DNA from: Thermodesulfovibrio sp. 3907-1M
GTDB lineage: Bacteria > Nitrospirota > Thermodesulfovibrionia > Thermodesulfovibrionales > Thermodesulfovibrionaceae
Assembly (NCBI RefSeq): GCF_040450955.1
Contig: NZ_CP144373.1
Coordinates: forward strand, 686,001 to 750,000
Reading direction: 5' to 3'
DNA: 64,000 nt
Shown here: positions 44,123 through 63,638 of the stretch, piece after piece
Layout of the letters: each line of letters starts with the position of its first letter
How positions within the stretch are numbered: the stretch's first letter is position 1
The notes under the pieces: generated by a model
What the model was told of the DNA's origin: nothing
The model's database searches: none
What the model saw: the letters and a program-made list of their open reading frames with translations, nothing else
Made by a program: the position numbers and the translations under genes

Positions 44123-44155
44123 TTCTCCTCCTCAGAATTGATTTCATAAATTTTT

Positions 44156-44164
44156 ATTATAGCA
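44156..44164 (-). promoter_or_regulatory. Extended -10 promoter of aspS
   Basis: Read on the minus strand, TGCTATAAT (44164-44156) is a perfect extended -10 element. No good -35 is seen, as is common with extended -10 promoters. The start site would be near 44149, with a leader of about 27 nt holding the ribosome site. Confidence 0.65.
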
Positions 44165-44198
44165 AAACAGCTATATCCAATAAAAATCGGATACTGCT

Positions 44199-44251
44199 AC
44201 CTGAGATTGTAAAACATACCGGGATAACATACTCTGTTCGCAATCTCAGGT
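44199..44251. repeat. Perfect 11 bp inverted repeat between aspS and pyrR
   Basis: ACCTGAGATTG (44199-44209) and its exact complement CAATCTCAGGT (44241-44251) flank 31 nt. It lies between two divergent promoters, just upstream of the pyrR -35. It could be a regulator-binding site pair, a cruciform or a small repeat element. It has no U-run and sits outside both transcripts, so it is not a terminator. Confidence 0.75.
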
Positions 44252-44254
44252 TAA

Positions 44255-44283
44255 TAGAAAAATTTTTTAAAATTGTGTATAAT
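44255..44283 (+). promoter_or_regulatory. Promoter of the pyr-pur operon
   Basis: TAGAAA (44255-44260), a 17 nt spacer and a perfect TATAAT (44278-44283). The start site should be near 44290, giving a leader of about 75 nt before pyrR. Confidence 0.65.
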
Positions 44284-44298
44284 GTATTGATTTTGGGT

Positions 44299-44324
44299 TT
44301 AATCTGATTAAGGAGACTGTCAGA
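44299..44324 (+). promoter_or_regulatory. pyrR leader symmetry elements
   Basis: A 6+1+6 palindrome, TTAATCTGATTAA (44299-44311), begins about 10 nt after the predicted start site. A weak 5 bp hairpin (44303-44307 with 44320-44324) precedes a run of T. I do not see the PyrR RNA-loop consensus known from Bacillus attenuators, so the mode of control is open. Confidence 0.35.
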
Positions 44325-44365
44325 ATTTTTTCAGAAATGGTAAGAAAGAAAATCAGGACAAAAGC

Positions 44366-44896
44366 ATGGAAAAAGAACTTCTCAATGAAAAAGAAATAGA
44401 AAGAATCCTGACAAGGATAACCCACGAGATATTGGAAAAAAATAAAGGTGCTGAAAATATCTGTCTGATAGGGATTGTTACAGGAGGAGTTTATCTTGCT
44501 GAAAGAATAAAAAATAAGATAAAAGAGACTGAAGGTGTTGATGTGCCCTTAGGTATTCTGGATATATCCTTTTACAGGGATGATATAAATATTTCAAAAA
44601 AGCGAAAACCAATAAAACCTACCAATATCCCATTTAGCATAGAGGGCAAAAATGTTATCCTCGTTGACGATGTGCTTTTCACAGGAAGATCAACAAGGGC
44701 AGCAATGGATGCATTGATGGACTTTGGCAGACCTGCTCAGATACAGCTTGCCGTATTAATTGATAGAGGACACAGGGAGCTTCCAATTATGGCTAACTAT
44801 ACAGGTAAATACATTCCCACTTCAAGGGACGAAAAAATAAAGGTAAATTTTAAAGAAGTTGCGGGTAGAGACTCTGTGTTATTAATTAAACAATGA
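44366..44896 (+). CDS. pyrR: Bifunctional pyr operon regulator / uracil phosphoribosyltransferase
   Basis: PyrR is a type I phosphoribosyltransferase that in Gram-positives binds pyr mRNA in response to UMP; it also has weak uracil PRTase activity. The 176 residues show GIVTGGVYLAERI, the PRPP loop VILVDDVLFTGRSTRAAM, LIDRGHRELP and YTGKYIPTS, all family hallmarks. It is first in the nine-gene operon, as expected of a regulator. The leader RNA does not show an obvious PyrR attenuator. Overlaps pyrB by 4 nt. Confidence 0.95.
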   Translation: MEKELLNEKEIERILTRITHEILEKNKGAENICLIGIVTGGVYLAERIKNKIKETEGVDVPLGILDISFYRDDINISKKRKPIKPTNIPFSIEGKNVILVDDVLFTGRSTRAAMDALMDFGRPAQIQLAVLIDRGHRELPIMANYTGKYIPTSRDEKIKVNFKEVAGRDSVLLIKQ

Positions 44897-45801
44897 AAGA
44901 CCTTATAGGAATAAAAGAGCTTTCAAGGCAGGATATTGAGGAAATCCTCAATACCGCTAAGGCTTTTAAAGAGGTTCTTCAAAGAGACATTAAAAAAGTT
45001 CCAACCCTAAGAGGTAAGACGGCAATCAATCTTTTCTTTGAACCATCAACAAGAACAAGAACATCCTTTGAACTGGCGGAGAAGCGTCTTAGCCTTGATG
45101 TGCTTAACTTTTCAGTAAGCACAAGCAGCGTTGTAAAGGGAGAAACCCTTTATGATACATTAAAAACCATTGAGGCATACAATGTTGACTATATTGTTAT
45201 AAGACATCCCTGTTCAGGAGCAGCAAAGTTTGTAGCAAATCATACTCCAGCCTGTGTTATAAATGCAGGAGATGGAACAAATGAGCATCCCACTCAGGCA
45301 TTGCTTGATGCTTTTAGCATTCTTGAGATTAAAGGTAGACTTGATGGACTCAAAATTGCTATTGTGGGGGATATAATTCACAGCAGGGTTGCGCGTTCAA
45401 ATCTTTATCTTTTAAGCAAGTTTGACACTGAGATAAGGTTTGTTGGACCTCCTACTGTTGTCCCTGGGTATGCACCTGATAATGTGAAAATTTTTTATGA
45501 CCTTAAAGAAGGTATAAAAGATTCAGATGTGATAATGCTTCTCAGGATTCAGCTTGAAAGACAGAATGCAGCATTTATACCATCTCTAAAAGAGTATTTT
45601 CATGTTTGGGGAGTAAAAAAGGATGTTTTTTCATACATTAAAGACGATGCAATTATTATGCATCCGGGTCCAATGAACAGAGGAGTTGAGATTTCCACGG
45701 AAGTGGCAGACAGTTCTCGTTCAATAATTCTCAGACAGGTAACAAACGGAATTGCTACAAGAATGGCTGTTATATATCTTTTAACTCCAAGGGAGGCATA
45801 G
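44893..45801 (+). CDS. pyrB: Aspartate carbamoyltransferase catalytic chain
   Basis: PyrB makes carbamoyl-aspartate, the committed pyrimidine step. The 302 residues contain the carbamoyl-phosphate motif FFEPSTRTRTSFE, the SSVVKGET loop, HPTQALLD, GDIIHSRVARSN and the MHPGPMNRG loop. No regulatory pyrI gene is present here; PyrB directly before PyrC is the arrangement seen in species where the two associate as a complex. The stop is directly followed by the pyrC start. Confidence 0.97.
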   Translation: MKDLIGIKELSRQDIEEILNTAKAFKEVLQRDIKKVPTLRGKTAINLFFEPSTRTRTSFELAEKRLSLDVLNFSVSTSSVVKGETLYDTLKTIEAYNVDYIVIRHPCSGAAKFVANHTPACVINAGDGTNEHPTQALLDAFSILEIKGRLDGLKIAIVGDIIHSRVARSNLYLLSKFDTEIRFVGPPTVVPGYAPDNVKIFYDLKEGIKDSDVIMLLRIQLERQNAAFIPSLKEYFHVWGVKKDVFSYIKDDAIIMHPGPMNRGVEISTEVADSSRSIILRQVTNGIATRMAVIYLLTPREA

Positions 45802-47130
45802 TTGATTATTAAAATTTACAATGCTTACATAATTGACCCCTTTACTGACAAAGAGGCAGTTGCTGATATAGTGGTTGAAAACGGAATTATTTCCAGATTA
45901 ATCTTTAAGTCTCAAGCCTTAAGCCTTAAGCCTGACACAAAGCCCTCAGCCTTAAACATTAAGCCTGACCTTATAGAAATAGATGCCCGAGGGCTTTATG
46001 TTTTCCCCGGTCTCATTGATATGCATGCCCACTTAAGAGAACCAGGATATGAATACAAGGAAACCATTCGCACAGGAACTCTTGCTGCTGTAAAAGGTGG
46101 CTTTACCTCTGTGTGTTGCATGGCAAATACTAATCCTGTAAATGACAATCCAGAGGTTACATACTACATTCTTGCAAAGGCAAACGAGGAGGGTAATTGC
46201 GATGTATATCCAATAGGAGCTATTACAAAGGGACTTAAAGGTGAGGAACTTTCTGAAATGGCAATGCTGAGGCAGGCAGGCTGTGTTGCCTTCTCAGATG
46301 ATGGCATGCCTGTAATGAATGCAATGATAATGAGAAGAGCTCTTGAGTATTCTAAAGCAGTGGGTGCTCCAATTATATCCCACTGCGAAGACCTCTTTTT
46401 AAGTGAAAATGGAGCAATGAATGAAGGCAAACTCTCCTTTTATATGGGACTTAAAGGAATCCCCAGGGCAGCAGAGGAAGTTATGGTTGCAAGGGATATA
46501 ATTTTATGCAAACACTTTCATGCACCTTTACACATTGCTCATGTATCAACTAAAGGCTCTGTTGATTTGATAAAAAAAGCTAAAGAGGAAGGAGTGCCTG
46601 TAACAGCTGAGACCTGTCCCCATTACTTTAGTCTTACTGAGGAGGCTGTAAGAGATTATAATACCAATGCTAAAGTAAATCCTCCATTACGCACAGAACA
46701 AGACAGAGAAGCAATAAAAGAGGCACTCAAGGAAGCAGTAGTTGATGTAATAGCCACAGATCATGCACCCCATAGCCTTGATGATAAAAACACTCCTTTT
46801 CAGGAGGCAGCAAATGGAATTTCCGGTCTTGAAACAGCTTTAGCTTTGAGCCTTAAACTGGTGCATGATAAAGTTTTAACTTTAAGACAACTAATTGAAA
46901 AATTTACTGTAAATCCCGCAAATATATTAAAGATAAATAAATCTGGCATCAAAGAAAAAGCAGAGGCTGATCTCATAGTTGTTGACATAAACAGACAATG
47001 GACAGTCAAAAAAGAAGAATTCGTCTCAATGGGGAAAAATACTCCCTTTGATGGTTGGCAACTTAAGGGGAAGGTTCTTATGACTGTAAAAGGTAGAAAA
47101 TTTTTTAATATGTGGCAGGAGGATAAATGA
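45802..47130 (+). CDS. pyrC: Dihydroorotase
   Basis: PyrC closes carbamoyl-aspartate to dihydroorotate with zinc. The 442 residues show GLIDMHAHLREPGYEYKET with the first metal histidines, the HCED and HIAHVST histidines and the catalytic Asp in VDVIATDHAPHS. It uses a TTG start directly after the pyrB stop, with GGGAGG upstream. Residues about 37-55 form a low-complexity insertion (LKPDTKPS and LNIKPD) encoded by an AAGCCTT-type DNA repeat, in a surface loop before the barrel. Metal and active-site residues are intact, so it should be active. Confidence 0.96.
   Translation: MIIKIYNAYIIDPFTDKEAVADIVVENGIISRLIFKSQALSLKPDTKPSALNIKPDLIEIDARGLYVFPGLIDMHAHLREPGYEYKETIRTGTLAAVKGGFTSVCCMANTNPVNDNPEVTYYILAKANEEGNCDVYPIGAITKGLKGEELSEMAMLRQAGCVAFSDDGMPVMNAMIMRRALEYSKAVGAPIISHCEDLFLSENGAMNEGKLSFYMGLKGIPRAAEEVMVARDIILCKHFHAPLHIAHVSTKGSVDLIKKAKEEGVPVTAETCPHYFSLTEEAVRDYNTNAKVNPPLRTEQDREAIKEALKEAVVDVIATDHAPHSLDDKNTPFQEAANGISGLETALALSLKLVHDKVLTLRQLIEKFTVNPANILKINKSGIKEKAEADLIVVDINRQWTVKKEEFVSMGKNTPFDGWQLKGKVLMTVKGRKFFNMWQEDK
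45914..45969 (+). repeat. AAGCCTT/AAGCCTG short repeats inside pyrC
   Basis: Two AAGCCTT heptamers and one AAGCCTG run head to tail at 45914-45934. A related, degenerate block (CAGCCTTAAACATTAAGCC) occurs at 45947-45965. The whole stays in frame and adds about 18 residues to dihydroorotase. Confidence 0.8.
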
Positions 47131-48209
47131 AAAAAGCAATGCTTGTTCTAAAGGATGGAACAGTGTTTGAAGGATACTCCTTTGGAGCAGAGGGAGAATC
47201 AATTGGAGAAGTTGTTTTTAATACATCAATGACCGGTTATCAGGAAATTCTTACAGACCCTTCATATAAAGGACAGATTGTTGTTATGACCTATACCCAG
47301 ATTGGAAACTACGGAGTAAATGATGAAGATGTGGAATCTCTTGGAGGACCAAAAGTTGAGGGATTTGTGGTGAGAGAATATAAAGACTATCCAAGTAACT
47401 GGAGAGCAGAGAGAAGTCTTGGAGAGTACCTTAAAAAGTATGGCATCGTGGGAATTCAGGGAATTGATACCAGAGCATTGACAAAACATTTAAGGGACAA
47501 AGGTGCTCAGATGGGAATTATATCAACAGAAGAGCTTGATCCTGTAAGCTTACATAAAAAAGTTCTTGCCCATCCTGATATATCAGAGATTGACCATGTT
47601 AGTGCCATGATGTGTAAAGAGCCTTATATGTACTTAAATAAAGAGGGTGCACCTCTCTGTGTTGTTTATGACTACGGAGTAAAACTGAGCATACTTAGAA
47701 ATTTAAAGAGAGTTGGATTTTCAGTCTATGTTGTACCTGGTAAAACATCTGCTGAGTATGTTCTTGAGATGAATCCTTCATGCGTGATGTTAAGTAATGG
47801 TCCTGGAGACCCGCAGATTCTCTCTTATGCAGTGGAAAATGTTAAAAAAATTATAGGTAAAAAGCCTGTATTCGGAATCTGCCTTGGTCATCAGATTTTA
47901 GGACTTGCCTTAGGAGGAAGGACATACAAACTTAAATTCGGTCATCACGGAGGAAATCATCCAGTTAAGGATCTAAAAACAGGAAGAATTTCTATAACAG
48001 CTCAGAATCATAACTACTGTGTTGATATTGCAAGTCTTAAAGGTCAGGTGAGGCTGACTCATAAAAATCTTTATGATGGAACAGAAGAAGGAATGGAACA
48101 TGTGGAGTATCCAATTTTTTCAGTGCAACACCATCCTGAAGCAGGACCAGGACCAAATGATGCCATTGATGTATTTGAAAGATTTATGGAAATCGTAAAA
48201 GGCTCGTAA
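47127..48209 (+). CDS. carA: Carbamoyl-phosphate synthase small (glutaminase) subunit
   Basis: CarA frees ammonia from glutamine and passes it to CarB for carbamoyl phosphate. The 360 residues show the N-terminal domain (LKDGTVFEGYSFGAEG, FNTSMTGYQEILTDPSY) and a class I amidotransferase with the nucleophile in FGICLGHQILGLALGG and catalytic His/Glu in VQHHPEAGPGPND. All catalytic residues are present. It overlaps pyrC by 4 nt and is separated from carB by one small gene. Confidence 0.98.
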   Translation: MKKAMLVLKDGTVFEGYSFGAEGESIGEVVFNTSMTGYQEILTDPSYKGQIVVMTYTQIGNYGVNDEDVESLGGPKVEGFVVREYKDYPSNWRAERSLGEYLKKYGIVGIQGIDTRALTKHLRDKGAQMGIISTEELDPVSLHKKVLAHPDISEIDHVSAMMCKEPYMYLNKEGAPLCVVYDYGVKLSILRNLKRVGFSVYVVPGKTSAEYVLEMNPSCVMLSNGPGDPQILSYAVENVKKIIGKKPVFGICLGHQILGLALGGRTYKLKFGHHGGNHPVKDLKTGRISITAQNHNYCVDIASLKGQVRLTHKNLYDGTEEGMEHVEYPIFSVQHHPEAGPGPNDAIDVFERFMEIVKGS

Positions 48210-48213
48210 GGTT

Positions 48214-48453
48214 ATGCCTGTAAAATATGATGAAATCTTTATTTCTACCATGCGTGAGATAAATATCTGCAAAGATTACATAAATGCCTATGAAAAGGAG
48301 ATTAAAAAACTTGAGAAAAAACTCGGTATCAGCTCTTCTCAAATAACTCAGGAGATGTTAAAGGACAAAAAAATAAAAAAACTTTATGAAAAAAACCTTG
48401 CCCTTCAAAGGGAAAAAGAAAGATTGAAAAGATTGGAGGAGCTTCTGAAATAG
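48214..48453 (+). CDS. Small coiled-coil protein between carA and carB
   Basis: A 79-residue protein with no family I recognise. It is highly charged and helical: an N-terminal helix with Tyr/Glu ([19 protein letters not shown]), a short loop [11 protein letters not shown], and a second helix rich in Lys, Glu and Leu. This would form a helical hairpin. There is no signal or membrane segment. It lies 4 nt after carA and 1 nt before carB, so it must be cotranscribed with both. It could act as a linker or chaperone for the CarAB complex or be unrelated to it. Confidence 0.7.
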
Positions 48454-48454
48454 T

Positions 48455-51400
48455 ATGCCAAAGAGAACAGATATTAAAAAAATAATGATTATCGGCTCTG
48501 GTCCGATAATAATTGGTCAAGCCTGTGAGTTTGATTACTCTGGTGCACAGGCATGCAAAGCTTTAAAACAGGAAGGCTATCAGGTAGTGCTTGTTAACTC
48601 AAATCCTGCAACAATTATGACAGACCCTTCAATGGCTGATGCTACTTACATTGAACCTTTGACTGCAGAGATCCTTGAGTTAATTATAAAAAAGGAAAGA
48701 CCTGATGCTTTGCTTCCAACACTTGGTGGACAGACTGCTCTAAATCTTGCCGTAGAGCTTGGAGAAGCAGGAGTCCTTGAGAGATACTCTGTGGAGCTAA
48801 TTGGTGCAAATTTAAATGCTATAAAAAAAGCAGAGGACAGAGAACTCTTTAAACAGGCAATGACAAAAATAGGGCTTGATGTCCCCCGTTCAGCAACAGT
48901 GCATAGTTTAAAAGAAGGAGTTGAAGTAATTGAATGGATAGGTTTTCCTGCAATTTTAAGACCTGCCTTTACTCTGGGTGGAACAGGAGGGGGAATCGCA
49001 TACAATATTGAGGAGTTTAAAGAACTTCTTGAAAGAGCGCTTAAGCTGAGTCCCATAAGTCAGGTTCTTATTGAAGAGAGTCTTCTTGGATGGAAGGAGT
49101 TTGAGCTTGAAGTAATGAGAGATAAAGCAGACAATGTTGTAATCATATGTTCCATTGAAAATTTTGATCCAATGGGAGTTCATACAGGAGACTCCATCAC
49201 TGTTGCACCAGCACAGACTCTTACTGACAGAGAATATCAAATTATGCGTGACAGTGCCATCAAAGCAATAAGAGAGATAGGTGTTGACACAGGTGGAAGC
49301 AATATTCAGTTTGCAGTAAATCCTGAAAATGGAAGAATGTGCATAATAGAGATGAATCCAAGAGTATCACGGAGTTCTGCTTTAGCCAGTAAGGCAACAG
49401 GATTTCCAATAGCAAAAATAGCTGCCCGCCTTGCCGTGGGATACACACTGGATGAGATTCCCAATGACATAACAAAAATAACACCGGCAAGCTTTGAGCC
49501 AGTCCTTGATTATGTAGTTGTTAAAATACCAAGATTTACATTTGAAAAATTCCCAGAGGCAAATCCTGTGCTCACAACCCAGATGAAGTCAGTGGGAGAG
49601 GTAATGGCTATTGGAAGAACATTTAAGGAAGCACTTGGAAAGGCAATTCGCTCCCTTGAGATTGGCTCATACGGATTTGAGGAAATCAATAGTTCCGATG
49701 ATGAAATAAGATGGAGAATTAAAAATCCCAATGCTGAAAGGATTTGGTACTTAGCAGAAGCCATTCGTAGAGGATTCAGCATACAGGAGATATATGAATT
49801 GAGTAGAATTGATCCGTGGTTTTTAAACAACATAAAAGAGATCCTGGAGATTGAAAACAAACTGAAAACTGAAGAATTAAATCATGATCTTGTCTTTGAA
49901 TCCAAACAAAATGGTATTTCTGACAAAAGAATAGCAATGCTTACTGGTAAAAAAGAAGAAGAAATAAGGCAGATGAGAGAAAAATTCAACATAAAGCCTG
50001 TCTATAAACTTGTTGATACCTGTGCAGCAGAGTTTGTAGCCTATACTCCATATATGTATTCCTGCTATGAAAAAGGATTTTATCGTCTTCAACCTGAAGC
50101 CACTGCCTTTAAACACCAAACCATAGTAGATGCTGATGCTCCACCTTCTGAAAATAAAAATAAAGTCATAATTCTTGGTTCAGGACCTAATAGAATAGGA
50201 CAGGGAATTGAGTTTGACTACTGCTGTGTTCATTCAGTCTTTGGTTTAAGAGAGCTTGGATATGAAACAATAATGATAAATTGTAATCCAGAGACAGTGA
50301 GCACAGATTATGACACTTCAGACAGACTTTATTTTGAACCCTTAACTCTTGAAGATGTCTTACACATTATTGAAAGAGAAAAACCACTTGGAGTTATACT
50401 TCAGTTTGGAGGACAGACACCTCTGAAGCTTGCAAAGGCTCTTGAAGCTCATGGTGTAAATATTCTCGGAACAAAGGCAGATGCAATTGACAGAGCTGAG
50501 GACAGGAAAAGATTTAAAGAACTGGTAGATAAATTAAATTTAAAACAGCCTCCAAGTGGAACAGCCACATCTCTTGAAGAAGCCCTGAAAATAGCAAATG
50601 AACTTGGATATCCCATTCTTGTAAGACCATCCTATGTGCTTGGAGGAAGAGCTATGGAGATTGTTTATGATGAAGAGTCTTTGCGTAGATATATGAGAGA
50701 GGCAGTAAAAGCCTCAGAAGACCATCCAGTGCTAATTGATAGATATCTTGAAGATGCCATTGAGGTGGATGTTGATGCAATCTCCGATGGAGTTGATGTG
50801 ATTGTTGCTGGTATAATGCAGCACATTGAAGAAGCAGGAATTCATTCTGGAGACTCTGCCTGCTCACTTCCACCTTACAGTCTTCCAGAAGAGATAATTC
50901 AAAAAATTAAGGAAGAAACCATTGCCATTGCAAAGGAACTTGAAGTCAAAGGACTTATGAATGTTCAGTATGCTGTAAAAGATGGAGAGGTCTATGTTTT
51001 GGAGGTAAATCCCCGTGCGTCAAGAACAATTCCCTATGTGAGTAAAAGCATAGGAGTCCCTCTTGCAGCAATGGCAGCAAAGATTATGGTTGGTAAAACA
51101 TTAAAGGAGCTGGGACTTACAAATCACATAAAAATGCCCTATGTGACAGTGAAAGAAGCTATTTTCCCATTTGATAAATTCCCTGAAGTGGATGTTATTC
51201 TCGGTCCTGAGATGAAATCAACTGGGGAAGTAATGGGAATAGATGAAGACTTTGGACTTGCCTATGCCAAGGCTCAGATGAGCGCAATGGGTAAAATTCC
51301 TTTAAGTGGAAAAGTATTTATAAGTGTAAAGGATAGGGATAAAGCTCTTGTTTTACCTATTGCAAAGGAGTTTATAGAGCTTGGTTTTACAGTGATTGCC

Positions 51401-51712
51401 ACTCGGGGAACTGCCAGATTTTTGAAAGAAAGGGGATTAAATGTGGAAACTATAAATAAACTCCAGGAAGGTCGTCCCCATGTCCTTGATTTAATAAAAA
51501 ACAGACAGATTCACTTTATAATAAACACGGTTTTCGGTAAGCAGTCACAAAAGGACTCAATGTACATAAGGAGAGGAGCTTTGCAATACAAAATTCCGTA
51601 TACTACAACCATCTCTGGAGCTAATGCAATTGTTAAAGCCATAAAAAGGCTTAAAGAAAGCAAAATTAAAGTAAAATCAATACAGGAATACCACAGGGAG
51701 GTGCTCGGGTGA
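48455..51712 (+). CDS. carB: Carbamoyl-phosphate synthase large subunit
   Basis: CarB makes carbamoyl phosphate from bicarbonate, ammonia and two ATP. The 1085-residue protein has two homologous ATP-grasp halves: [19 protein letters not shown] begins the first and [18 protein letters not shown] the second. An oligomerisation domain lies between, and a C-terminal MGS-like allosteric domain follows ([25 protein letters not shown]). Length and domains are complete. It overlaps purH by 4 nt, joining the pyrimidine genes to purine genes. Confidence 0.98.
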
Positions 51713-53241
51713 TAAAAAGGGCATTAATAAGTGTATCTGAAAAAAGGGGATTAATAGAGTTTGCAAAGGAACTTTTTCAGCTGGGAGTGGAGATTATCTC
51801 TACAGGTGGAACAGCAAAAATTTTAAGGGAAGCTGGAATAAATGTGATAGATGTTTCAGAGTATACAGGCTTTCCTGAAATTATGGATGGCAGGGTAAAA
51901 ACCCTTCATCCACTTATTCACGGTGGAATACTGGCACGAAGGAGCAACAGAAATGACATAGATGCAATGCAAAGGCTGGGAATTAAACCCATTGACGTGG
52001 TGGTTGTTAATCTCTATCCCTTTGAAGCAACAATAAAAAAAGAAGATGTCACTATTGAAGAAGCCATTGAAAACATTGATATTGGCGGACCTACACTGCT
52101 GAGAGCTGCAGCTAAAAACTACAAAGATGTGATAGTTATTGTTGACCCTGATGATTATCCTTCCATAATTGAGGCTCTTAAAAAAGGGGAAGTTTCTACA
52201 GAAAAAAGATTTGAACTTGCAAAGAAGGTCTTTTCTCATACAGCAAGATATGATGCCTTAATTGCAGATTATTTTGATAAAATCAGTTCTTCAGCCTTTA
52301 AAGAGGACTGGACATTGCCATTAAAAATGGTGCAAACATTAAGATACGGAGAAAATCCTCATCAGAAAGCAGCACTATATGCATTGAATGAAACTCCATC
52401 ATTGATAGATGCAGAAGTACTGCAGGGCAAAGAGATGTCCTTTAATAACTATCTTGACACTCATTCAGCAGTTCTTTTAGCTTCAGAATTTGAACAACCA
52501 GTCTGTGTAATTGTAAAACACAACAATCCCTGTGGAGTAGCAATTGCTGAGGATCCTCTGGATGCTTATAAAAAAGCCTTTGAATGTGATCCTGTAAGTG
52601 CTTTTGGTGGAATAATTGCTTTTAACAGAGTTGTGGATAAAACCACGGCAGAAGAAGTTATTCAAACTTTTTATGAGGTTGTTATTGCGCCAGGATTTGA
52701 TGAAGAATCATTGAAAATTTTTTCAAAAAAGAAAAATCTGAGATTACTGAAATTTCCAGCTCTTTCTGATAAAATTAAACCATCAGGTTTTGATTTAAAG
52801 AGAATTATCGGTGGATTTATAGTGCAGCAGTGGGATACTCTTGAGGATGAATTTTCTCAGGCAAAGATTGTAACAAAGAGAAAGCCCACAGAGGATGAAT
52901 GGAGAGCTTTAAAGTTTGCATGGAAGGTTTGCAAACATGTAAAATCAAATGCCATTGTTTATGCAAGAGAGGACAAAACAGTGGGACTTGGAATTGGTCA
53001 GACAAGCAGAGTATTTTCAGCAAAGATAGGTGCAATGCATGCCTTAAGTCCATTAAAAGGAACTGTGGTCGCATCTGATGGATTCTTCCCATTCAGAGAT
53101 AACATTGATGTCCTTGCACAAAATGGAGTAACTGCTATAATTCAGCCAGGTGGATCTGTCCGAGACCAGGAAGTAATTGACGCAGCAGACCAGTATGGTA
53201 TGGCAATGGTATTTACAGGAATAAGACATTTCAGGCACTAA
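51709..53241 (+). CDS. purH: Bifunctional AICAR transformylase / IMP cyclohydrolase
   Basis: PurH performs the last two steps to IMP. The 510 residues contain an N-terminal MGS-fold cyclohydrolase ([42 protein letters not shown]) and the C-terminal transformylase ([53 protein letters not shown]). Both catalytic regions are intact. It has a GTG start overlapping the carB stop and lies 1 nt before the protoglobin/PsiE gene. Confidence 0.97.
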
Positions 53242-53242
53242 G

Positions 53243-54133
53243 ATGAGACCTTTTAAAGAAATCAAAGCGAACTATTATTTTACAAAAGAGGATGAGAATA
53301 GGCTTTTAGAGCTTAAGCCTCTTATGGAAAAAAGAGCTGAAAAAGTTGTAGGAGCTCTTTATCAATGGATCATCCAGACAGATTCAGCAAAAAGAATTTT
53401 TAAAAATGAATCATTAATAAAACATGTAATGAGACTCGTAAGAACATGGTTTATAAGTCTTTTTTCTGGCAGATATGATAACTACTTTTATGATTCTCTG
53501 ATAAGAGTTGGACAAAAACATGAAAAAGTTGGCGTAGATCCTCATTTTATGACAAGAGCAATAAATATCATAAGAAATGCCTGCGTTGATATACTTTGTG
53601 AGGAAATGGAACAAAACAGAGAAAAATATTTAATCTCAATCAATAAGATACTTGACATAAATCTTGATATTATCACCTCTGCTTACCTTGAGGAAGAAAT
53701 CAAAGGTTATTCCCCAGCCTATAGAATAAAACTACAACTTGTAAGGTATGGTGAAATATTCTCTCAACTTGTAAGTATCGTTTTAATACTTGGATTGAGC
53801 ATTCTTACTTTTGCTGTTATTTATCTTTGTGGAAAAGACATATATGAAATATTATCAGGTAAATTAGAACAGACAATTGTAACAGCACTTGGTTCAGTTC
53901 TTATTCTATGGGTTATGCTTGAACTTTTAAATACTGAAATCACGCATCTTAAAGGAGGAAAATTCAGAATAAGTGTTTTTGTTGGAGTTGCTCTTGTTAC
54001 TGTAATAAGAGAGACAATGATTGCAACCCTAAAACATGAAACAATTGAATTCATAATTTCATTAATAGCTGCTATTCTCGTAATTGGTTTAATTTACTGG
54101 TTAGTTAAAAAGACAGAGGAGGACAGAAGATGA
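53243..54133 (+). CDS. Protoglobin-PsiE fusion: putative heme gas sensor with membrane domain
   Basis: A 296-residue protein with two parts. Residues 8-165 match the protoglobin/globin-coupled sensor fold: YYFTKEDENRLLELKPLMEK at the start, Tyr40 at the likely distal B10 site, TWFISLFSGRYDNYF, and the proximal histidine His93 in RVGQKHEKVGVDPHF. Residues 172-290 hold four membrane helices (about 172-195, 210-230, 243-256, 267-288). The motif VMLELLNTEITHLKGGK between them and VIRETM after them fit the PsiE (phosphate-starvation-inducible E) domain. The sensor would face the cytoplasm. It lies 1 nt after purH and overlaps purD by 4 nt, so it is made with the nucleotide enzymes. The domain calls are by eye; the partner and output are unknown. 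Confidence 0.82.
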   Translation: MRPFKEIKANYYFTKEDENRLLELKPLMEKRAEKVVGALYQWIIQTDSAKRIFKNESLIKHVMRLVRTWFISLFSGRYDNYFYDSLIRVGQKHEKVGVDPHFMTRAINIIRNACVDILCEEMEQNREKYLISINKILDINLDIITSAYLEEEIKGYSPAYRIKLQLVRYGEIFSQLVSIVLILGLSILTFAVIYLCGKDIYEILSGKLEQTIVTALGSVLILWVMLELLNTEITHLKGGKFRISVFVGVALVTVIRETMIATLKHETIEFIISLIAAILVIGLIYWLVKKTEEDRR

Positions 54134-55395
54134 AAGTTCTTGTTATAGGTTCAGGAGGAAGAGAACATGCCATAGTATGGAGACTTGCGCAGTCAAGAGT
54201 AATTGATAAAATTTACTGTATGCCTGGAAATGCGGGGATTTCCGATCTGGCAGAGTGTGTAGAAATTGAGAGTAAGGAGTTTTCTACTCTTGTTGACTTT
54301 GTTAAATATGAGTGGATTGACCTTACAGTAGTTGGACCTGAAGACCCTCTTGCAAAGGGAATTGTTGATGTGTTTCAGAAAGAGGGACGAAAAATTATCG
54401 GTCCAACAAAAGCAGCTGCTCAACTGGAAAGTAGTAAAGTTTTTGCAAAGGAATTTATGAAAAGGCATAAAATTCCAACAGCGGAATACAAAGTTTTTAC
54501 ATCCTACACACACGCTGAAGAATATATTAGATTGAAAGGCGCTCCAATTGTTGTAAAAGCAGATGGACTTGCTGCAGGCAAAGGAGTTTTTGTATGCCAG
54601 AGTTATGAAGAAGCAGTTGAGGCATTAAAACTTATTATGAAAGAAAAAATTTTTGGTTCCGCTGGAGAAAAAGTTGTCATTGAAGAATGTCTTCAGGGTA
54701 AAGAAGCTTCCTATCTTGTTTTTACAGATGGTAAAAACATAGTCCCAATGGTTACATCAAAGGACCATAAAAGACTTCTTGACAACGATGAGGGACCAAA
54801 TACAGGAGGTATGGGAACATTCAGTCCTAATCCAGTAATTACTGCAGAACTTGAAAAAGAAATCCTTGATACAATAATTAAGCCAACAATAAGAGGATTA
54901 AAATCTGAAGGAATAGTTTATAAAGGGATTCTTTATGCAGGACTTATGATTGTCAATAACAAACCGTATGTGCTTGAGTTTAATTGCCGATTTGGTGATC
55001 CTGAAACACAGGTAATTTTGCCAAGACTTGAAACTGACTTAGTTGACATTTTTATGGCAATAACAGAGCAGAAATTAAATAAAGTAGATGTAAAATGGAA
55101 AGATGCTTCATCTTTATGTGTTATTCTTGCATCAGAAGGATATCCGGGAAAATATAAAAAAGGTCTGCCTATTAAAGGTCTTGAAATGGTAAAAGGATTA
55201 AAAGATGTAATTGTCTTTCATGCAGGCACTAAATTTGATGAAGACGGCAGGATTGTAACAAATGGAGGAAGAGTTCTTGGAGTTACTGCCTTAGGAAAAG
55301 ATATAAAAGAGGCAAGGCATAAGGTTTATAACGCTGTTAAGTTAATTCATTTTGAAGGAATGCAGTACAGAAAAGACATTGGATTAAATATTTAA
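54130..55395 (+). CDS. purD: Phosphoribosylamine-glycine ligase (GAR synthetase)
   Basis: PurD joins phosphoribosylamine and glycine with ATP, the second purine step. The 421 residues show the N domain ([19 protein letters not shown]), the ATP-grasp core ([34 protein letters not shown]) and the metal site [11 protein letters not shown]. It is last in the nine-gene operon; a 23 nt AT-rich gap separates it from tRNA-Leu. Confidence 0.97.
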
Positions 55396-55418
55396 AAAAT
55401 TTTTAAAATAAAAAATAA

Positions 55419-55499
55419 GCGAGAGTGGCGGAATGGCAGACGCGCTGGACTTAGAATCCAGTGGAGAGATCCGTGAGGGTTCAAATCCCTCCTCTCGCA
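55419..55499 (+). tRNA. tRNA-Leu (UAG)
   Basis: A class II tRNA of 81 nt. The acceptor stem GCGAGAG pairs with CTCTCGC, discriminator A. The anticodon stem CTGGA/TCCAG holds a 7 nt loop with TAG at 55452-55454, reading CUA and related leucine codons. The long variable arm forms a GGA/TCC stem, and the T arm is GAGGG-TTCAAAT-CCCTC. CCA is not encoded. It follows purD closely and no separate promoter is evident. Confidence 0.96.
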
Positions 55500-55556
55500 T
55501 TGAATGTTAAAACTCTCCATTTTGCTAATTTTGTTCTTTAGAGGTGAAGCTTAAAA

Positions 55557-56084
55557 ATGCAAGAGAAAAAAATTAATGGAAAAACATTACGGATAATGAT
55601 CGGAGATATCACAGAAAGGGATACAGATGCCATTGTTAATGCAGCAAATAATTATCTCAAACACGGTGGAGGAGTGGCTGGTGCAATTGTGCGAAAGGGT
55701 GGACAGATCATACAGGAAGAAAGTGATAGAATTGGCTTTGTGCCAACAGGTTCTGCAGCAATCACCACTGCTGGTTCTTTAAAAGCAAAATATATAATTC
55801 ATGCTGTTGGACCTAAGTGGGGTGAGAGCCAGGAAGAAGAAAAGCTTAAAAATGCGGTATTAAGCAGTCTCAGGCTTGCCAATGATTATAAACTTAAAAC
55901 CATATCATTCCCTGCGATAAGTTCAGGAATATATGGCTGTCCAAAGAATATGGTTGCAAAAGTTTTAATTAACACTGCAGCTGAATATTTAAAAAACTAC
56001 AATACAACTCTTGAACTCATTGAGTTCTGTCTTTTTGATGAAGAAAGCTTTCGCTACTTTAAAGAGGAGTTTGATAAAATATAA
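55557..56084 (+). CDS. Macro domain protein (ADP-ribose-binding/O-acetyl-ADP-ribose deacetylase type)
   Basis: A 175-residue single macro domain. Motifs seen are GDITERDTDAIVNAANNYL, the GGGVAGAIVRKGG loop, IIHAVGPKWGE and the phosphate loop FPAISSGIYGCP. Such proteins bind ADP-ribose and many remove it from proteins or hydrolyse O-acetyl-ADP-ribose. The Asn-Asn-Gly/Ala region is intact. GAGGTG precedes the ATG at a suitable distance. The gene ends 5 nt before tRNA-Thr and begins 57 nt after tRNA-Leu, so it may share their transcript. Confidence 0.93.
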   Translation: MQEKKINGKTLRIMIGDITERDTDAIVNAANNYLKHGGGVAGAIVRKGGQIIQEESDRIGFVPTGSAAITTAGSLKAKYIIHAVGPKWGESQEEEKLKNAVLSSLRLANDYKLKTISFPAISSGIYGCPKNMVAKVLINTAAEYLKNYNTTLELIEFCLFDEESFRYFKEEFDKI

Positions 56085-56089
56085 TTAAT

Positions 56090-56161
56090 GCCGGGATAGC
56101 TCAGCGGTAGAGCAGTCGATTCGTAATCGACTGGTCGTGGGTTCAAATCCCATTCCCGGCT
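56090..56161 (+). tRNA. tRNA-Thr (CGU)
   Basis: A 72 nt tRNA. The acceptor stem is GCCGGGA/TCCCGGC, with discriminator T. The anticodon stem GTCGA/TCGAC holds the loop TTCGTAA, with CGT at 56122-56124 reading ACG. The D arm (GCTCAGCGGTAGAGC) and T arm (GTGGG-TTCAAAT-CCCAT) are regular; CCA is not encoded. U at position 73 is unusual for bacterial tRNA-Thr, where A is common. Its 3' end abuts the stop codon of the convergent YkuK-like gene. Confidence 0.95.
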
Positions 56162-56656
56162 TTAATTTGTATGCCTGTCTGCTACTTTTGTAGCACCGAA
56201 GGAATCAGGTTTTGTTACAGCAATATATCCTGAGCCAACAATCATCTTAATAACTTCCTTAACAAGACTTCTTGTTGCTCCATTTTTACCTATATCAAGA
56301 TGAATTTCAACGGGTAATCGGGAAACTCCATTTTCAGATAATTTACTCCTTAAAGCCTCTGCCACTTCAAGGCTGAGTGAGGCTTCAGTAAAAATTCTCA
56401 ACTTTAAACTATCCACTTTTTCATGTTTTATTTTTCTGTAAAAATATCTTCCACCAGAACCTTTTCTATGAATTATTATTGCAGTTACAAAGACAGTCTC
56501 TTCTCCAGGAAAAGAATCACTCCCTACTATTAAATTGTATTGTCTGTCAGGTTGTTCTCTTACAAAATCTATTATTTTTTCAAAAACCTGTTGAAATGAC
56601 AAACATCCAAATGTAGGACTGATAAAAACTGATTTTTTTAACGATTCAGCTTCCAT
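56162..56656 (-). CDS. YkuK-like RNase H-fold protein (DUF458)
   Basis: A 164-residue protein resembling Bacillus YkuK and the DUF458 family, which has an RNase H-like fold with unproven activity. The first conserved acid lies in LIVGSDSFPG; other family features are VTAIIIHRKGSGGRYFYRK, EIHLDIGKNG and GYIAVTKPDSFGATKVADRHT at the end. It is convergent to tRNA-Thr with no gap at all. It is divergent from tRNA-Gly with 76 nt between. No partner gene is evident. Confidence 0.85.
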   Translation of the reverse strand: MEAESLKKSVFISPTFGCLSFQQVFEKIIDFVREQPDRQYNLIVGSDSFPGEETVFVTAIIIHRKGSGGRYFYRKIKHEKVDSLKLRIFTEASLSLEVAEALRSKLSENGVSRLPVEIHLDIGKNGATRSLVKEVIKMIVGSGYIAVTKPDSFGATKVADRHTN

Positions 56657-56687
56657 TTTTTATATTTTACCAAAAATTCTCCAAAAG

Positions 56688-56717
56688 TTGACATATTTTA
56701 ATCTATGATGATATAAA
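56688..56717 (+). promoter_or_regulatory. Promoter of tRNA-Gly and the downstream operon
   Basis: TTGACA (56688-56693), an 18 nt spacer and TATAAA (56712-56717) place the start site near 56724, 9 nt before the mature tRNA-Gly 5' end. This is the clearest stable-RNA promoter in the window. Confidence 0.75.
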
Positions 56718-56732
56718 AAACTATATACCTTT

Positions 56733-56804
56733 GCGGGCGTAACTCAGCGGGAGAGTGTCAGCTTCCCAAGCTGAAGGTCGCGGGTTCAAATCCCGTCGCC
56801 CGCT
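56733..56804 (+). tRNA. tRNA-Gly (CCC)
   Basis: A 72 nt tRNA. The acceptor stem GCGGGCG pairs with CGCCCGC, with discriminator T, normal for glycine. The anticodon stem TCAGC/GCTGA holds TTCCCAA, with CCC at 56765-56767 reading GGG. The T arm is GCGGG-TTCAAAT-CCCGT. The acceptor stem is followed at once by a T-run (56804-56809), so the tRNA 3' end could act as a weak terminator before the methyltransferase gene. Confidence 0.95.
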
Positions 56805-56812
56805 TTTTTATT

Positions 56813-56818
56813 GGAGGT
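56813..56818 (+). promoter_or_regulatory. Ribosome-binding site setting the methyltransferase start
   Basis: GGAGGT at 56813-56818 lies just before the TTG at 56823. A TTG at 56811 overlaps this site and is therefore unlikely to be the start. Confidence 0.65.
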
Positions 56819-56822
56819 CAGC

Positions 56823-57608
56823 TTGTCAGTATTCAAAGAAGGTGATTTAGCTCTTTTGATAGATTCAAAGGAAAGAAAATATCTTGTTACTTTAAAAAAA
56901 GACGCTTCTTTTTCATTCCATAAGGGTAATGTTTACTTCAATGAAATAATAGGCAAGCCCGATGGAACTAAGATTAAATCATCTCACGGGGAGACTTTAA
57001 CTGCTTTTCGCCCTACCCTTGAAGAATACATTCTTAAAATGAAAAGAGGAGCTCAGATAATATATCCAAAAGATATTTCAAGAATTATCACCCTTCTTGA
57101 TGTCTTCCCTGGAGCAAAAGTATTTGAAGCTGGAACAGGCTCTGGAGCCTTAACTCTGTATCTTTTACGAGCTGTTGGAGAAAAAGGCAAGGTTGTCTCA
57201 TACGAAAAAAGGCAGGATTTTTATGAAAATGCGAGGATAAATATTGAAAAATTTATTGAAAATGAAGCTGCAGGACAATTAATTCTTTTAAATAAAGACA
57301 TTGCTGAAGGGATAGAAGAGTCAGACTTTGATAGAGCAATTCTTGACCTTACAGAACCATGGCTTTTTCTTGATAAGGTGGTAAATGCTTTAAAATCTGG
57401 TGGAATTATAGGATGTTACCTGACAACAGTTTTACAGATATATAGTTTGATGGAAGAATTTGAAAAAAACTTCTCTCAAAAACTTCATAAAATCGGCATA
57501 TTTGAAATTCTTGAAAGAAAATGGGAAAAACAGGGTCTAAGCCTCAGGCCAGCCTTAAGAATGGTGGCTCATACAGGATTTATTGTTGTCTTTAGAAAAC
57601 TTTCATGA
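56823..57608 (+). CDS. trmI: tRNA (adenine-58-N1)-methyltransferase, TrmI type
   Basis: A 261-residue methyltransferase that makes m1A at position 58 of the tRNA T loop, a change linked to thermostability. The N-terminal beta domain is followed by a Rossmann core with the SAM motif VFEAGTGSGALTLYLLRAVG, SYEKRQDFYENARINIEKF, and the family segment RAILDLTEPW. I begin at the TTG at 56823 because of its ribosome site. The gene lies directly behind tRNA-Gly and overlaps the radical SAM gene by 4 nt. A tRNA modification gene beside tRNA genes fits functionally. Confidence 0.9.
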   Translation: MSVFKEGDLALLIDSKERKYLVTLKKDASFSFHKGNVYFNEIIGKPDGTKIKSSHGETLTAFRPTLEEYILKMKRGAQIIYPKDISRIITLLDVFPGAKVFEAGTGSGALTLYLLRAVGEKGKVVSYEKRQDFYENARINIEKFIENEAAGQLILLNKDIAEGIEESDFDRAILDLTEPWLFLDKVVNALKSGGIIGCYLTTVLQIYSLMEEFEKNFSQKLHKIGIFEILERKWEKQGLSLRPALRMVAHTGFIVVFRKLS

Positions 57609-58909
57609 CTGTCAGGTGTCTTCTTGTAAATCCCTGGATTTATGACTTTGCTGCCTATAATTTCTGGGCAAGACCTCTCGGATTGTTGAAAGTGGCTGAA
57701 TTTTTAAGTCAATTTAACTTTGAACTATTCTTAATAGACTGCTGTGATTCCTTTAGAGTGAAAAAATATGGAACAGGAAAATACAGGGCAGAAGTTGTTG
57801 AAAAACCTGAAATTTTAAAAAATATACATAGAAAATATAAAAGATACGGATGCAGTAAGGAAGAATTCATTGAAAAATTAAGCCTTGCTGATTCTGTTGA
57901 CCTTATCCTGGTTACTTCTATTATGGCTTACTGGTGGTACGGAGTAAAGGAAGTTATAAAAATTTTAAGAGAAAAATTCAAAGACATTCCAATTATTCTT
58001 GGAGGAATTTATGCTACTCTTTATAAAGAACATGCAGAAAAAAATACCAATGCTGATTTTATTTATGAAGGACAGATAGATAATAGATTAATTAAAACAA
58101 TTGAAAACTTTGGATTAAAGCTTAAAAGAATAAACGACAAGCCAAAATACTGGTGGCAGATGAGTTTTTATAAAGAAATGCCTTATGCTCCGATTTTAAC
58201 TTCCACAGGATGTCCTTTTAGATGTTCCTACTGTGCTTCTTCCCTGTTATATAAATCCTTTGAACAAAGAAATATAGATGAAGTAGTTGATGAAATTGAA
58301 GGATTATACAGGCTTGGAGTAAGAGACTTTGCCTTTTATGATGACGCTTTATTATATAAAGCTGATACTCATATAAAGCCTTTGCTTGAAAAACTACTTA
58401 AAAAGAATTTACAGGCAAGATTTCACACTCCCAATGGACTTCATGCCCGCTATATTGATAGAGAGCTTGCTCAGTTAATGAAGCTTACAGGATTTAAAAC
58501 TCTGAGACTGAGCCTTGAAACAGTGGACATAAAAAGGCAGATAGAAACAGGAGGAAAAGTTACCTCTGATGAAGTTGAAAGAGCAGTTTTTTATCTTAAA
58601 GAAGCAGGATTTTCTTGTCAGGAAATAGGAGTTTATGTAATGTATGGGCTCCCTGAACAAACTCTTGATGAAGTGAGAGCTAGCGTAGAGTTTCTTAGAA
58701 AATTAAGAGTTCGCATTCATTTAACAGAGTTTTCACCAATTAAAGGAACCTATTACTGGCAAAGGCTTGTAAGGACCGGCGTTATTTCCGAAGATTTAGA
58801 TCCTCTTTTGACAAATAATTCAATTTTTTCAGAGATTTTTGCTGGATATTCAAGAGAGGAATTACAAAAATTAAAACTTGATGTGAACAACTTTAATCTG
58901 ATATTATAG
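57605..58909 (+). CDS. Radical SAM protein with B12-binding-like N-terminus
   Basis: A 434-residue radical SAM enzyme. The N-terminal 170 residues resemble a cobalamin-binding (B12-type) domain: LLVNPWIYDFAAYN, PLGLLKVAEFL and LGGIYATLY. The cluster motif CPFRCSYC follows (Cys203, Cys207, Cys210), then the barrel signatures GVRDFAFYDDAL, TLRLSLETVD and YVMYGLPEQT. Known relatives include methyltransferases and many uncharacterised proteins, so the product is unknown. I see no DXHXXG motif, so B12 may be bound base-off or not at all. It overlaps trmI by 4 nt. Confidence 0.87.
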   Translation: MTVRCLLVNPWIYDFAAYNFWARPLGLLKVAEFLSQFNFELFLIDCCDSFRVKKYGTGKYRAEVVEKPEILKNIHRKYKRYGCSKEEFIEKLSLADSVDLILVTSIMAYWWYGVKEVIKILREKFKDIPIILGGIYATLYKEHAEKNTNADFIYEGQIDNRLIKTIENFGLKLKRINDKPKYWWQMSFYKEMPYAPILTSTGCPFRCSYCASSLLYKSFEQRNIDEVVDEIEGLYRLGVRDFAFYDDALLYKADTHIKPLLEKLLKKNLQARFHTPNGLHARYIDRELAQLMKLTGFKTLRLSLETVDIKRQIETGGKVTSDEVERAVFYLKEAGFSCQEIGVYVMYGLPEQTLDEVRASVEFLRKLRVRIHLTEFSPIKGTYYWQRLVRTGVISEDLDPLLTNNSIFSEIFAGYSREELQKLKLDVNNFNLIL

Positions 58910-58939
58910 ACAGCAAAGTTTTTAGCCTGGAGGAATCAA

Positions 58940-59416
58940 GTGGAAGAAAAAAAATTAGCAGAATTAATAAGAACAATCATCAGAGAAGAAGTCAGAGCCA
59001 TTGTTAAAGAAGAACTAACCGAAATTATTAGAGAAGAAGTTAAAGCAATCGTTAAAGAGGAAATCAAAGGACTCGTTAATGATGTGGCTATGCTGAAAAA
59101 TGATGTGGCTATGCTGAAAAATGATGTGGAAGAAATCAAGAAAGAGATGGCTACAAAAGCTGAATTAATGAGTATGGAGCAAAGATTCACTGCCTCACTT
59201 GAAAAACTAAGAGAAGCACTCAGGTTTTCCATGTTAGAAGTTCATAGTGATTTAGAAGACATAAAGGTTAAGTTAAAAATGTATGACTTTGACTTTTTGC
59301 TTAAACAAAATGATCATCTTGCAGGAGTTTTAAAGGATTTACTTGAAGAAAGAAAAGCTTTATCGCAGAGAATGAAAGACTTTGAAAGCAGGCTAAAAGC
59401 TCTTGAAGTAGCATAA
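58940..59416 (+). CDS. Coiled-coil protein of unknown function
   Basis: A 158-residue, mostly helical protein with no recognised catalytic motif. Residues 9-45 carry two copies of an alternating REEVRAIVKEEL-type pattern. A tandem duplication follows (NDVAMLK twice, then NDVEEIK), and the rest is a charged coiled coil to the C-terminus. It has a GTG start with GGAGG 10 nt upstream. The tandem heptads suggest length variation. Such proteins often form trimeric or filament-like bundles; the partner is not known. It lies 30 nt after the radical SAM gene and 1 nt before mqnB. Confidence 0.7.
   Translation: MEEKKLAELIRTIIREEVRAIVKEELTEIIREEVKAIVKEEIKGLVNDVAMLKNDVAMLKNDVEEIKKEMATKAELMSMEQRFTASLEKLREALRFSMLEVHSDLEDIKVKLKMYDFDFLLKQNDHLAGVLKDLLEERKALSQRMKDFESRLKALEVA
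59078..59119 (+). repeat. 21 bp tandem repeat in the coiled-coil gene
   Basis: Two exact head-to-tail 21 bp units (59078-59098 and 59099-59119) are followed by a partial third that keeps the first 10 bp. Each unit encodes one heptad, NDVAMLK, so the array stays in frame. Confidence 0.9.
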
Positions 59417-59417
59417 A

Positions 59418-60092
59418 TTGATAGCTCTATTTTTTGCTACTAAAAAAGAATGTGAATTAATCATTAAAAGCTTAAACAATAAGCAGTTTTTTTCCATAAA
59501 AACTGTATCATTTATAAAAGGCAAAATAAAAGATGTTGATTTAGTTTTATGTATCTCAGGTATTGGAAAAACTTCAGCAACCTTATCCTCTGTAATCTGT
59601 TTTGAAAATTTCTCTATAAAAGGGGCTATTGTATCAGGCATAGGAGGTGCCTATCCTTCCTCTGGGCTTGAGATAGGAAGTATTGCAGTAGCGGAAAAGG
59701 AAATCTTTGCTGACGAAGGACTGTTAAGAAACTGTCATGATGCTTCAGATTCTTTTATTTTTTTCAATCTTGAACAAATATCTCTTTATGTACCAGATTT
59801 TTTGAAAAATCTTCCTAAAGGAACATTTCTCACTGTTTCATCCTGCACAGGAAATCTTGAAAGAGCCAGACTCCTTGAAAAAAAGTTCAATGCTCTGTGT
59901 GAAAACATGGAAGGTGCAGCAGTTGGAAGAGTATCTAAAATTTATAATATTCCATGTATTGAAATAAGAAGTATCAGTAATATGGTTACTGACAGAGCAG
60001 AACTTTTAAGTTTAAAGGAAGTGGCAGAGAAATCTTTGATTGTTCAAAAATTTATTATTGAAAATCTTACACTATTTGAAGAGTCTCTTTAA
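59418..60092 (+). CDS. mqnB: Futalosine hydrolase
   Basis: MqnB cleaves futalosine to dehypoxanthine futalosine and hypoxanthine in the alternative menaquinone pathway. The 224-residue nucleoside phosphorylase-like protein shows IGKTSATLSS, VSGIGGAYP, the purine-site segment CENMEGAAVGRV with the catalytic Glu, and RSISNMVTDR, the family closing motif. A TTG start lies 1 nt after the previous stop. The other mqn genes are not in this window. Its end overlaps the converging TPR gene by 26 nt. Confidence 0.93.
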   Translation: MIALFFATKKECELIIKSLNNKQFFSIKTVSFIKGKIKDVDLVLCISGIGKTSATLSSVICFENFSIKGAIVSGIGGAYPSSGLEIGSIAVAEKEIFADEGLLRNCHDASDSFIFFNLEQISLYVPDFLKNLPKGTFLTVSSCTGNLERARLLEKKFNALCENMEGAAVGRVSKIYNIPCIEIRSISNMVTDRAELLSLKEVAEKSLIVQKFIIENLTLFEESL

Positions 60093-62490: not shown

Positions 62491-62560
62491 AAATAATCTT
62501 GTGTCTGTGTATAAAATATATGGTTTTGAAAATAAAATAACCTGAATGAGGAAAAGGGAC

Positions 62561-62800
62561 ATGGAAAACCACAAGGAACTCTATGAAGCAGCAAAGGAAG
62601 AAATATTCAGGCAGGCAGTTGAGAAGGTGTTTGGAGATACTTTAATGGGTAAGCATCCAGGTATAAAAAGGCTTCTTGAGGAAACGATTAACCAGATAAT
62701 GAAATCCGAAAGGCAGATATTTCTAAAAAATAACCCTGGGAACAAGGCCAATGGCTATTACCCTCGTCAGCTCTCTGAAGGCTCCTTCTGCCTTGACCTT
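62561..62800 (+). pseudogene. IS256-type transposase, N-terminal fragment
   Basis: About 80 residues matching the start of IS256-family transposases: ELYEAAKEEIFRQAVEKVFG, then GIKRLLEETINQIMKSER and NKANGYYPRQLSEGSF. After 62800 the frame runs into repeat DNA. The DDE domain with the first catalytic Asp is absent. An ATG five codons upstream, at 62546, is also in frame. Confidence 0.85.
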
Positions 62801-62838
62801 AAGTCCAAACAGGAATCCCTGACGTCAGGGGCTCTTTG

Positions 62839-62927
62839 TTTGTCATTCCGAGCCTGCCCATAATTTGTCATTCCGAGCCTGCCCATACTTTGTCATTCCG
62901 AGCCTGCCCATAATTTGTCATTCCGAG
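62839..62927 (+). repeat. 25 bp tandem repeat (three copies plus a partial)
   Basis: Units of 25 bp start at 62839, 62864 and 62889. Each reads TTTGTCATTCCGAGCC followed by TGCCCATAA or TGCCCATAC. A fourth copy at 62914 keeps the first 14 bp and then continues as the arm of the hairpin element. The array is homogeneous with no spacers. Confidence 0.9.
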
Positions 62928-63010
62928 CGAAGCGAGGAATCTCCTTTGTTTTTTTTGGCATTGAAAGACTCAGAGATTCCTCGGGTGGGATGCCACCCTC
63001 GGAATGACAA
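62914..63010. repeat. Imperfect inverted repeat element (REP/MITE-like)
   Basis: The left arm (62914-62943) contains TTGTCATTCCGAG and CGAGGAATCTC. The right arm (62973-63010) has their complements, GAGATTCCTCG and CTCGGAATGACAA. Inside the right arm GGGTGGGATGCCACCC forms a further small hairpin. A palindrome of the type CATTCCGAGCGAAGCGAGGAATC is a known widespread dispersed repeat in bacterial genomes; here it has settled in dead transposon DNA. Confidence 0.85.
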
Positions 63011-63104
63011 CCCTAAGGTCCAAACAGGAATCCCTGAAGTAAGGGGCTAAGACCAAGGTAAATCTCAACCATAATGAATGGGGATAGACCTTCAGGGGCA
63101 GAAG

Positions 63105-63638
63105 GATATCTATGGATTTTATGAGTTTTTTGGCTCAGAGAGTAAGGAAGGCTGAGAGCATCAGTTGTGTTTTGTGCATTTAAAGAGAAACATAAGGAGG
63201 AATATGGGAAAGGAGGCATCCAAGGAGTTTCTCAAAAAGCTTCATCAGATAAAACAATTCAGTGCAGGTCTTGAGGAGGCTGTAGAGAGGTTTAAAGCCC
63301 TCTGCGATAGATACCAGAGAAGTTATCCTTATTTTATGAAAGAACTTAAGGAGAAGGCAGAGAAGTATTTTAATTTCCTTAGATATCCTGAAAATATAAG
63401 AAGACACATATACACAACCAATGCAGTAGAGAACTTTAACCGGAGGATAGAGGAGATAAGGCTCAGGCTTGGAGGATACTTTCAATCAGTTGAAATACTT
63501 GAGATGAATCTGTTTTTGCAGAGGGAGCGATTATTACAGGGCAGATGGAAAAAACCCGTCCCTATACTCAAGGCTAATGCCTATGAACTCAGACAGATTT
63601 TTAACAGAAAATTCTATGGCCAGACACAAAACTCTTGA
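63105..63638 (+). pseudogene. IS256-type transposase, C-terminal fragment
   Basis: The C-terminal half of the transposase. After a stop codon at 63153 (in GFYEFFG...EG-stop-EHQLC) the frame is open: QLCFVHLKRNIRRNMGKEA, then YTTNAVENFNRRIEEIRLRL, which holds the last catalytic Glu, and a tail ending GQTQNS. The central part with the first two catalytic acids is missing. The stop codon lies within the terminal inverted repeat, as is usual for this family. Confidence 0.85.

Follow-up and report, generated by a model that had tools for sequence, protein, structure and literature searches.

A protoglobin fused to a PsiE-family membrane domain in Thermodesulfovibrio, a candidate membrane-bound heme gas sensor

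The stretch of DNA analyzed here (the window; 64,000 nucleotides), from a heat-loving Thermodesulfovibrio, carries a gene, set between purH and purD, that joins a protoglobin domain to a PsiE-family membrane domain in a single reading frame. The best reading of this fusion is a membrane-bound heme gas sensor. We propose, at a probability of roughly 0.45, that it is a membrane-anchored globin-coupled sensor for a diatomic ligand, most likely nitric oxide (NO), that relays to PsiE. Globin-coupled sensors described so far act through kinases, cyclases, or chemotaxis modules, and a small membrane domain serving as globin transmitter would be a different route from gas binding to cell response. PsiE itself is a common orphan membrane family, named for its induction by phosphate starvation in Escherichia coli, and we know of no biochemical function for the domain. 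The fusion would give PsiE a controllable input, the heme ligand, and thus a handle on its function.

The fusion gene and its family

The features of the window on which the analysis turns are as follows.

44366..51712, + strand: pyrR, pyrB, pyrC, carA, and carB, leading into purH (from the order and spacing of open reading frames; named by eye from their translations)
51709..53241, + strand: purH (AICAR transformylase/IMP cyclohydrolase), the upstream neighbor (NCBIfam TIGR00355, E 1.8e-208)
53243..54133, + strand: protoglobin-PsiE fusion gene (open frame, 296 amino acids; both Pfam domains exceed their cut-offs)
53255..53698, + strand: Protoglobin (heme) domain, residues 5-152 (PF11563; AlphaFold2 model; residue counts)
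53699..53758, + strand: linker, residues 153-172, helix from globin H into TM1 (AlphaFold2 helices 126-156 and 158-205)
53771..54118, + strand: PsiE domain, residues 177-292, four transmembrane helices (PF06146; hydrophobic segments)
54130..55395, + strand: purD (GAR synthetase), the downstream neighbor (NCBIfam TIGR00877, E 5.8e-173)

The frame at 53243-54133 is free of stops in its host, a member of the Nitrospirota. Profile searches bore out the earlier note, which had recognized a protoglobin in the N-terminal half and PsiE in the C-terminal half: residues 5-152 match Pfam PF11563 at an E value of 1.7e-26 (93.6 bits against a cut-off of 25), and residues 177-292 match PF06146 at 6.8e-23 (81.6 bits against 23.9). 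No second Protoglobin match was found elsewhere in the source genome (1.94 Mb, one contig). The fusion gene is under purifying selection, with a dN/dS of ~0.07-0.09 relative to three congeners. A genome survey for the fusion recovered it at full length in 49 of the 198 Nitrospirota genomes searched, and all 52 aligned family members match both Pfam domains (Protoglobin at E 0.001 or better). Given the purifying selection, the full-length relatives in 49 genomes, and the presence of both domains in every aligned member, the fusion is a genuine gene and an accident of assembly or annotation is ruled out; the family is old and selected. No relative was present in the plasmid records searched. The open-access literature searched neither names nor describes a globin-PsiE protein, in agreement with the earlier note, whose author knew of none.

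Fold and relationships of the two halves

An AlphaFold2 model of the globin half, confident across residues 10-150 (pLDDT about 90), has the globin fold that had been anticipated from the sequence. Together with the alignment, it gives a predicted 3-over-3 globin with a proximal His at F8, and it superposes on 2w31 with a TM-score of 0.91 (normalized to 2w31) at 1.7 Å and with a VIA Z score of 22.6 at 1.6 Å. The top structural matches were the Geobacter sulfurreducens GCS globin, followed by AfGcHK, the Thermosynechococcus globin, and HemAT. His93, put forward previously as the proximal ligand, is invariant across 52 homologues, as are Trp69, Gly90, and His101. The candidate distal Tyr40 is present in this protein but did not prove to be a general feature: Thermodesulfovibrio (apart from one row with Phe) and two distant families, f22 and f26, have Tyr at position 40 (B10), which is mostly Ser, Asn, His, Asp, or Glu in other lineages. 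Each of the 11 Thermodesulfovibrio rows has Val or Ile (Val66 in the fusion protein itself) at position 66, which was assigned to E11 through alignment to 2w31 (in which His66 is E11). Gln takes this position in f5, f10, and f19 and in the majority of f3 members; His was seen there only in f8, f11, and a single f12 member. Because the distal residues at B10 and E11 vary among lineages, ligand preference may vary among them too.

The closest solved relative, both by sequence (profile E value of 2.2e-50 over residues 1-160) and by fold (Z 22.6, with an alignment that reaches the start of the linker), is the globin of G. sulfurreducens GsGCS. Full-length GsGCS continues into a transmembrane C-terminal region, and if that C terminus is PsiE, the fusion class has already been half-seen. 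The GsGCS162 globin is bis-histidyl through His66 (E11) (PMC4476040), a feature that the fusion protein, with Val66, lacks. HemAT, AfGcHK, DosC, and BpeGReg share the N-terminal heme-globin fold (Z 18-22) followed by a C-terminal transmitter, but they signal through chemotaxis, histidine kinase, or diguanylate cyclase modules, whereas four PsiE-family membrane helices stand in that place here. The N-terminal Protoglobin domain and C-terminal PsiE domain reproduce the layout of a globin-coupled sensor, in which the PsiE half would be the signal transmitter. The protoglobin of Methanosarcina acetivorans (2veb) belongs to the same Pfam family, has the same fold (Z 18.0), and carries Tyr at B10; it is a single domain with a heme-burying N-terminal extension, whereas the fusion protein adds the PsiE half, and its Trp B9 and Phe E11 (PMC3680402) are replaced by Leu39 and Val66. 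By every feature examined, the globin half belongs to the protoglobin/globin-coupled sensor family.

Four hydrophobic segments with a positive-inside pattern make up the PsiE half, consistent with the four helices noted earlier. Positive charge falls in the linker, the TM2-TM3 loop, and the C terminus, and this distribution, read by the positive-inside rule, suggests that the globin half lies in the cytosol. Across 47 aligned PsiE domains, a set that took in the E. coli protein and, from the same order, PsiE proteins that stand alone, Glu227 and Arg256 are the only invariant columns. E. coli PsiE and the stand-alone proteins thus share with the fusion both the Pfam domain and the invariant Glu and Arg, while Glu232, His235, and Lys240 are conserved additionally in the fusion family. 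E. coli PsiE is 15% identical to the PsiE half and has no globin fused to it, and against NF002763, the NCBIfam equivalog for E. coli-type PsiE, the fusion protein scored 19.6 bits (cut-off of 138). The PsiE half is therefore within Pfam PsiE but outside the E. coli equivalog, and the fusion as a whole is a globin-coupled sensor variant whose presumed transmitter is a membrane domain. The idea that the protein is coupled to phosphate physiology was dropped, since no gene context supports it.

In the AlphaFold2 model, helix H of the globin (126-156) gives way almost without interruption to a second helix (158-205) that becomes TM1, a continuity that plausibly serves as the signal relay. A profile search of solved structures returned none resembling the PsiE half by sequence, and a model of this half (pLDDT 76), built from an alignment without the E. 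coli sequence, had no structural match at an E value of <0.6. Its resemblances to Orai and V-ATPase were weak matches and were set aside.

Genomic neighborhoods

The tight spacing described in the earlier note is as stated there: purH ends at 53241, leaving a 1-nt gap, and purD begins at 54130, giving a 4-nt overlap. Among the pyr genes upstream there is a single 245-nt gap, between carA and carB. An Rfam search over 40000-60000 returned tRNAs only, with no riboswitch or attenuator recognized before the pyr genes, and promoter and terminator scans gave matches no more numerous than in shuffled sequence. The order purH-fusion-purD was found at every Thermodesulfovibrio locus examined and in f3, f5, f8, and part of f12, and in f11 the fusion gene precedes purD; in all, six of the order's families show this operon position. 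The fusion gene is not linked to pur genes in f4, f9, f10, f19, f22, f26, and part of f12, and at two loci (L096 and L104) purH is followed directly by purD and the fusion gene is absent. The pur linkage is thus genuine and old, yet not universal. In a maximum-likelihood tree, certain deeper forks of which are only moderately supported, pur-linked members branch earlier in the main clade and other contexts are nested within. Most simply, the linkage reflects steady co-expression.

At seven loci (L039, L043, L044, L045, L101, L102, and L103), the purH preceding the fusion gene is reduced to its first ~195 residues, presumably the IMP cyclohydrolase domain, so these genomes may encode the two PurH activities separately.

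Neighbor contexts in relatives were determined by tblastn. In f19, a Nitrospirota family outside the order (13 genomes), the fusion gene has within 2.4 kb, in all 13 genomes, a gene for a CBS-domain protein and one for an HPP-family membrane protein, both of them directly downstream and co-directional in 11. Four f19 genomes have norC-norB flanking the fusion gene (G041, G053, G068, and G063), three have nrfA-nrfH (G041, G058, and G015), and three have a hemerythrin-like gene, named by eye, beside it on the upstream side (G015, G080, and G048). An nrfHA pair is divergently adjacent to the fusion gene in one f10 genome (G178), and a universal stress protein gene divergently adjoins it in 5 of the 7 members of f22. 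Overall, 7 of 28 non-pur genomes have norB or nrfA no more than 2 kb from the fusion gene, compared with 0.04 expected by random placement, an expectation that ignores relatedness and therefore overstates independence, the seven genomes being kin; the norB/nrfA arrangements vary among them. Gene identities were verified on representatives only, for NorB (E value of 4e-114 to a solved NorB), NrfH (NCBIfam, 1.7e-44), HPP (Pfam, 9e-60), NrfA, CBS, and MOSC. Within 10 kb of the fusion gene, there were no COX1-superfamily matches other than NorB-type ones. In plants, the HPP protein AtNITR2;1 is a candidate transporter of nitrite (PMC4137279). Taken together, the neighborhoods of these relatives suggest NO or nitrite. 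One further genome (G146, C55:134-2844) has an HPP gene and a NorB-type gene ~1 kb apart at a site separate from the fusion gene, so an HPP-NorB linkage may exist independently of the fusion.

No nitrite or NO gene adjoins the fusion gene in Thermodesulfovibrio. HPP genes were found in 0 of 10 genomes of the genus and a COX1/NorB-type gene in 1 of 10; nrfA lies at 397 kb in the source genome, far from the fusion gene, and most Thermodesulfovibrio genomes likewise have it elsewhere. Since the genus is without HPP genes and nearly always without NorB-type genes, it is by analogy only that these relatives suggest NO as the ligand of the Thermodesulfovibrio protein.

Proposed mechanism and alternative readings

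In the mechanism that we favor, the cytosolic protoglobin half would bind heme via His93 and sense a diatomic ligand, most likely NO from nitrite metabolism, with O2 or CO also possible. Ligand binding or a redox change would shift the globin helix bundle, and the long H helix running into TM1 would pass this shift to the four-helix PsiE domain, with the Glu227/Arg256 pair as its presumed conserved core. The target of the PsiE domain might then be either a partner protein in the membrane or its own conductance; in the CBS/HPP-linked relatives, the partner may be the HPP-family protein, of the nitrite transporter type. In Thermodesulfovibrio, location in the pur/pyr operon would keep the gene expressed in growing cells. 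A broader version of this reading, in which the family is a widespread class of membrane NO receptors whose protoglobin drives a PsiE domain controlling nitrite/NO traffic, for example through the linked HPP-family transporter, is more doubtful, but would supply the first function for the orphan PsiE family. The NO-linked relatives yield a specific, testable prediction of both ligand and partner.

Because the characterized protoglobin sensors, those in c-di-GMP signaling, are mainly O2 sensors (PMC8846402), the main rival is that the fusion uses the same relay to sense O2 or redox state, such as traces of O2 in an anaerobic sulfate reducer, and that the nitrite/NO neighbors mark general redox islands. 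The Tyr40 retained at B10 in Thermodesulfovibrio and the hemerythrin-like genes of three f19 genomes fit this idea, but Tyr B10 is missing from the greater part of the family and from every lineage that has Nor or Nrf neighbors, and the neighbors observed are nitrite/NO enzymes, NorB-type genes being the sole COX1-superfamily matches nearby. We consider sensing of O2 or redox state clearly less probable than sensing of NO. The same neighborhoods would also suit a non-sensing globin that PsiE anchors at the membrane and that scavenges or converts NO, and globins in general can dioxygenate NO (PMC3820574). Such an enzyme is unlikely here: the fusion protein has no reductase domain, its membrane half lacks a conserved heme b His pair (His235 alone is nearly invariant), and conservation of the PsiE half matches that of the globin half, more than anchoring alone would require.

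The earlier note raised, as one hypothesis, a link to phosphate or nucleotide physiology, and the fusion could in principle tune nucleotide synthesis, or a membrane enzyme complex, to gas or redox state. The recurrent purH-gene-purD order, including the purD-side position in f11, and the early branching of pur-linked members speak for such a role. As a general coupling it was not supported, given that L096 and L104 keep purH-purD without the gene and that the gene persists off pur genes in seven families (in one of them, f12, in part), including near nitrite/NO genes; co-expression by itself accounts for the linkage, and we rate this explanation as improbable as NO scavenging. Least probable is that the globin half has lost its heme and that the protein acts via PsiE alone. 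One locus is of the kind this would predict: in G113 (L095), an in-frame deletion between purH and purD removes nearly the entire globin half, fusing its first ~23 residues to the PsiE helices, so that only PsiE remains in the pur operon. This is a single draft genome, in which misassembly is possible, and loss of heme runs counter to the low dN/dS and to the four invariant globin residues, His93 among them, in 52 sequences.

Beyond the fusion locus, an open reading frame 3' of purD (55557-56084) resembles a macro-domain protein; a gene 66% identical to it adjoins the fusion gene at another locus (L042 in G196), where purH and purD were not found beside it. Three tRNA genes also lie 3' of purD (55419-55499, 56090-56161, and 56733-56804), and fragmented open reading frames at the end of the window (62546-63638) resemble pieces of a Mutator/IS256-type transposase.
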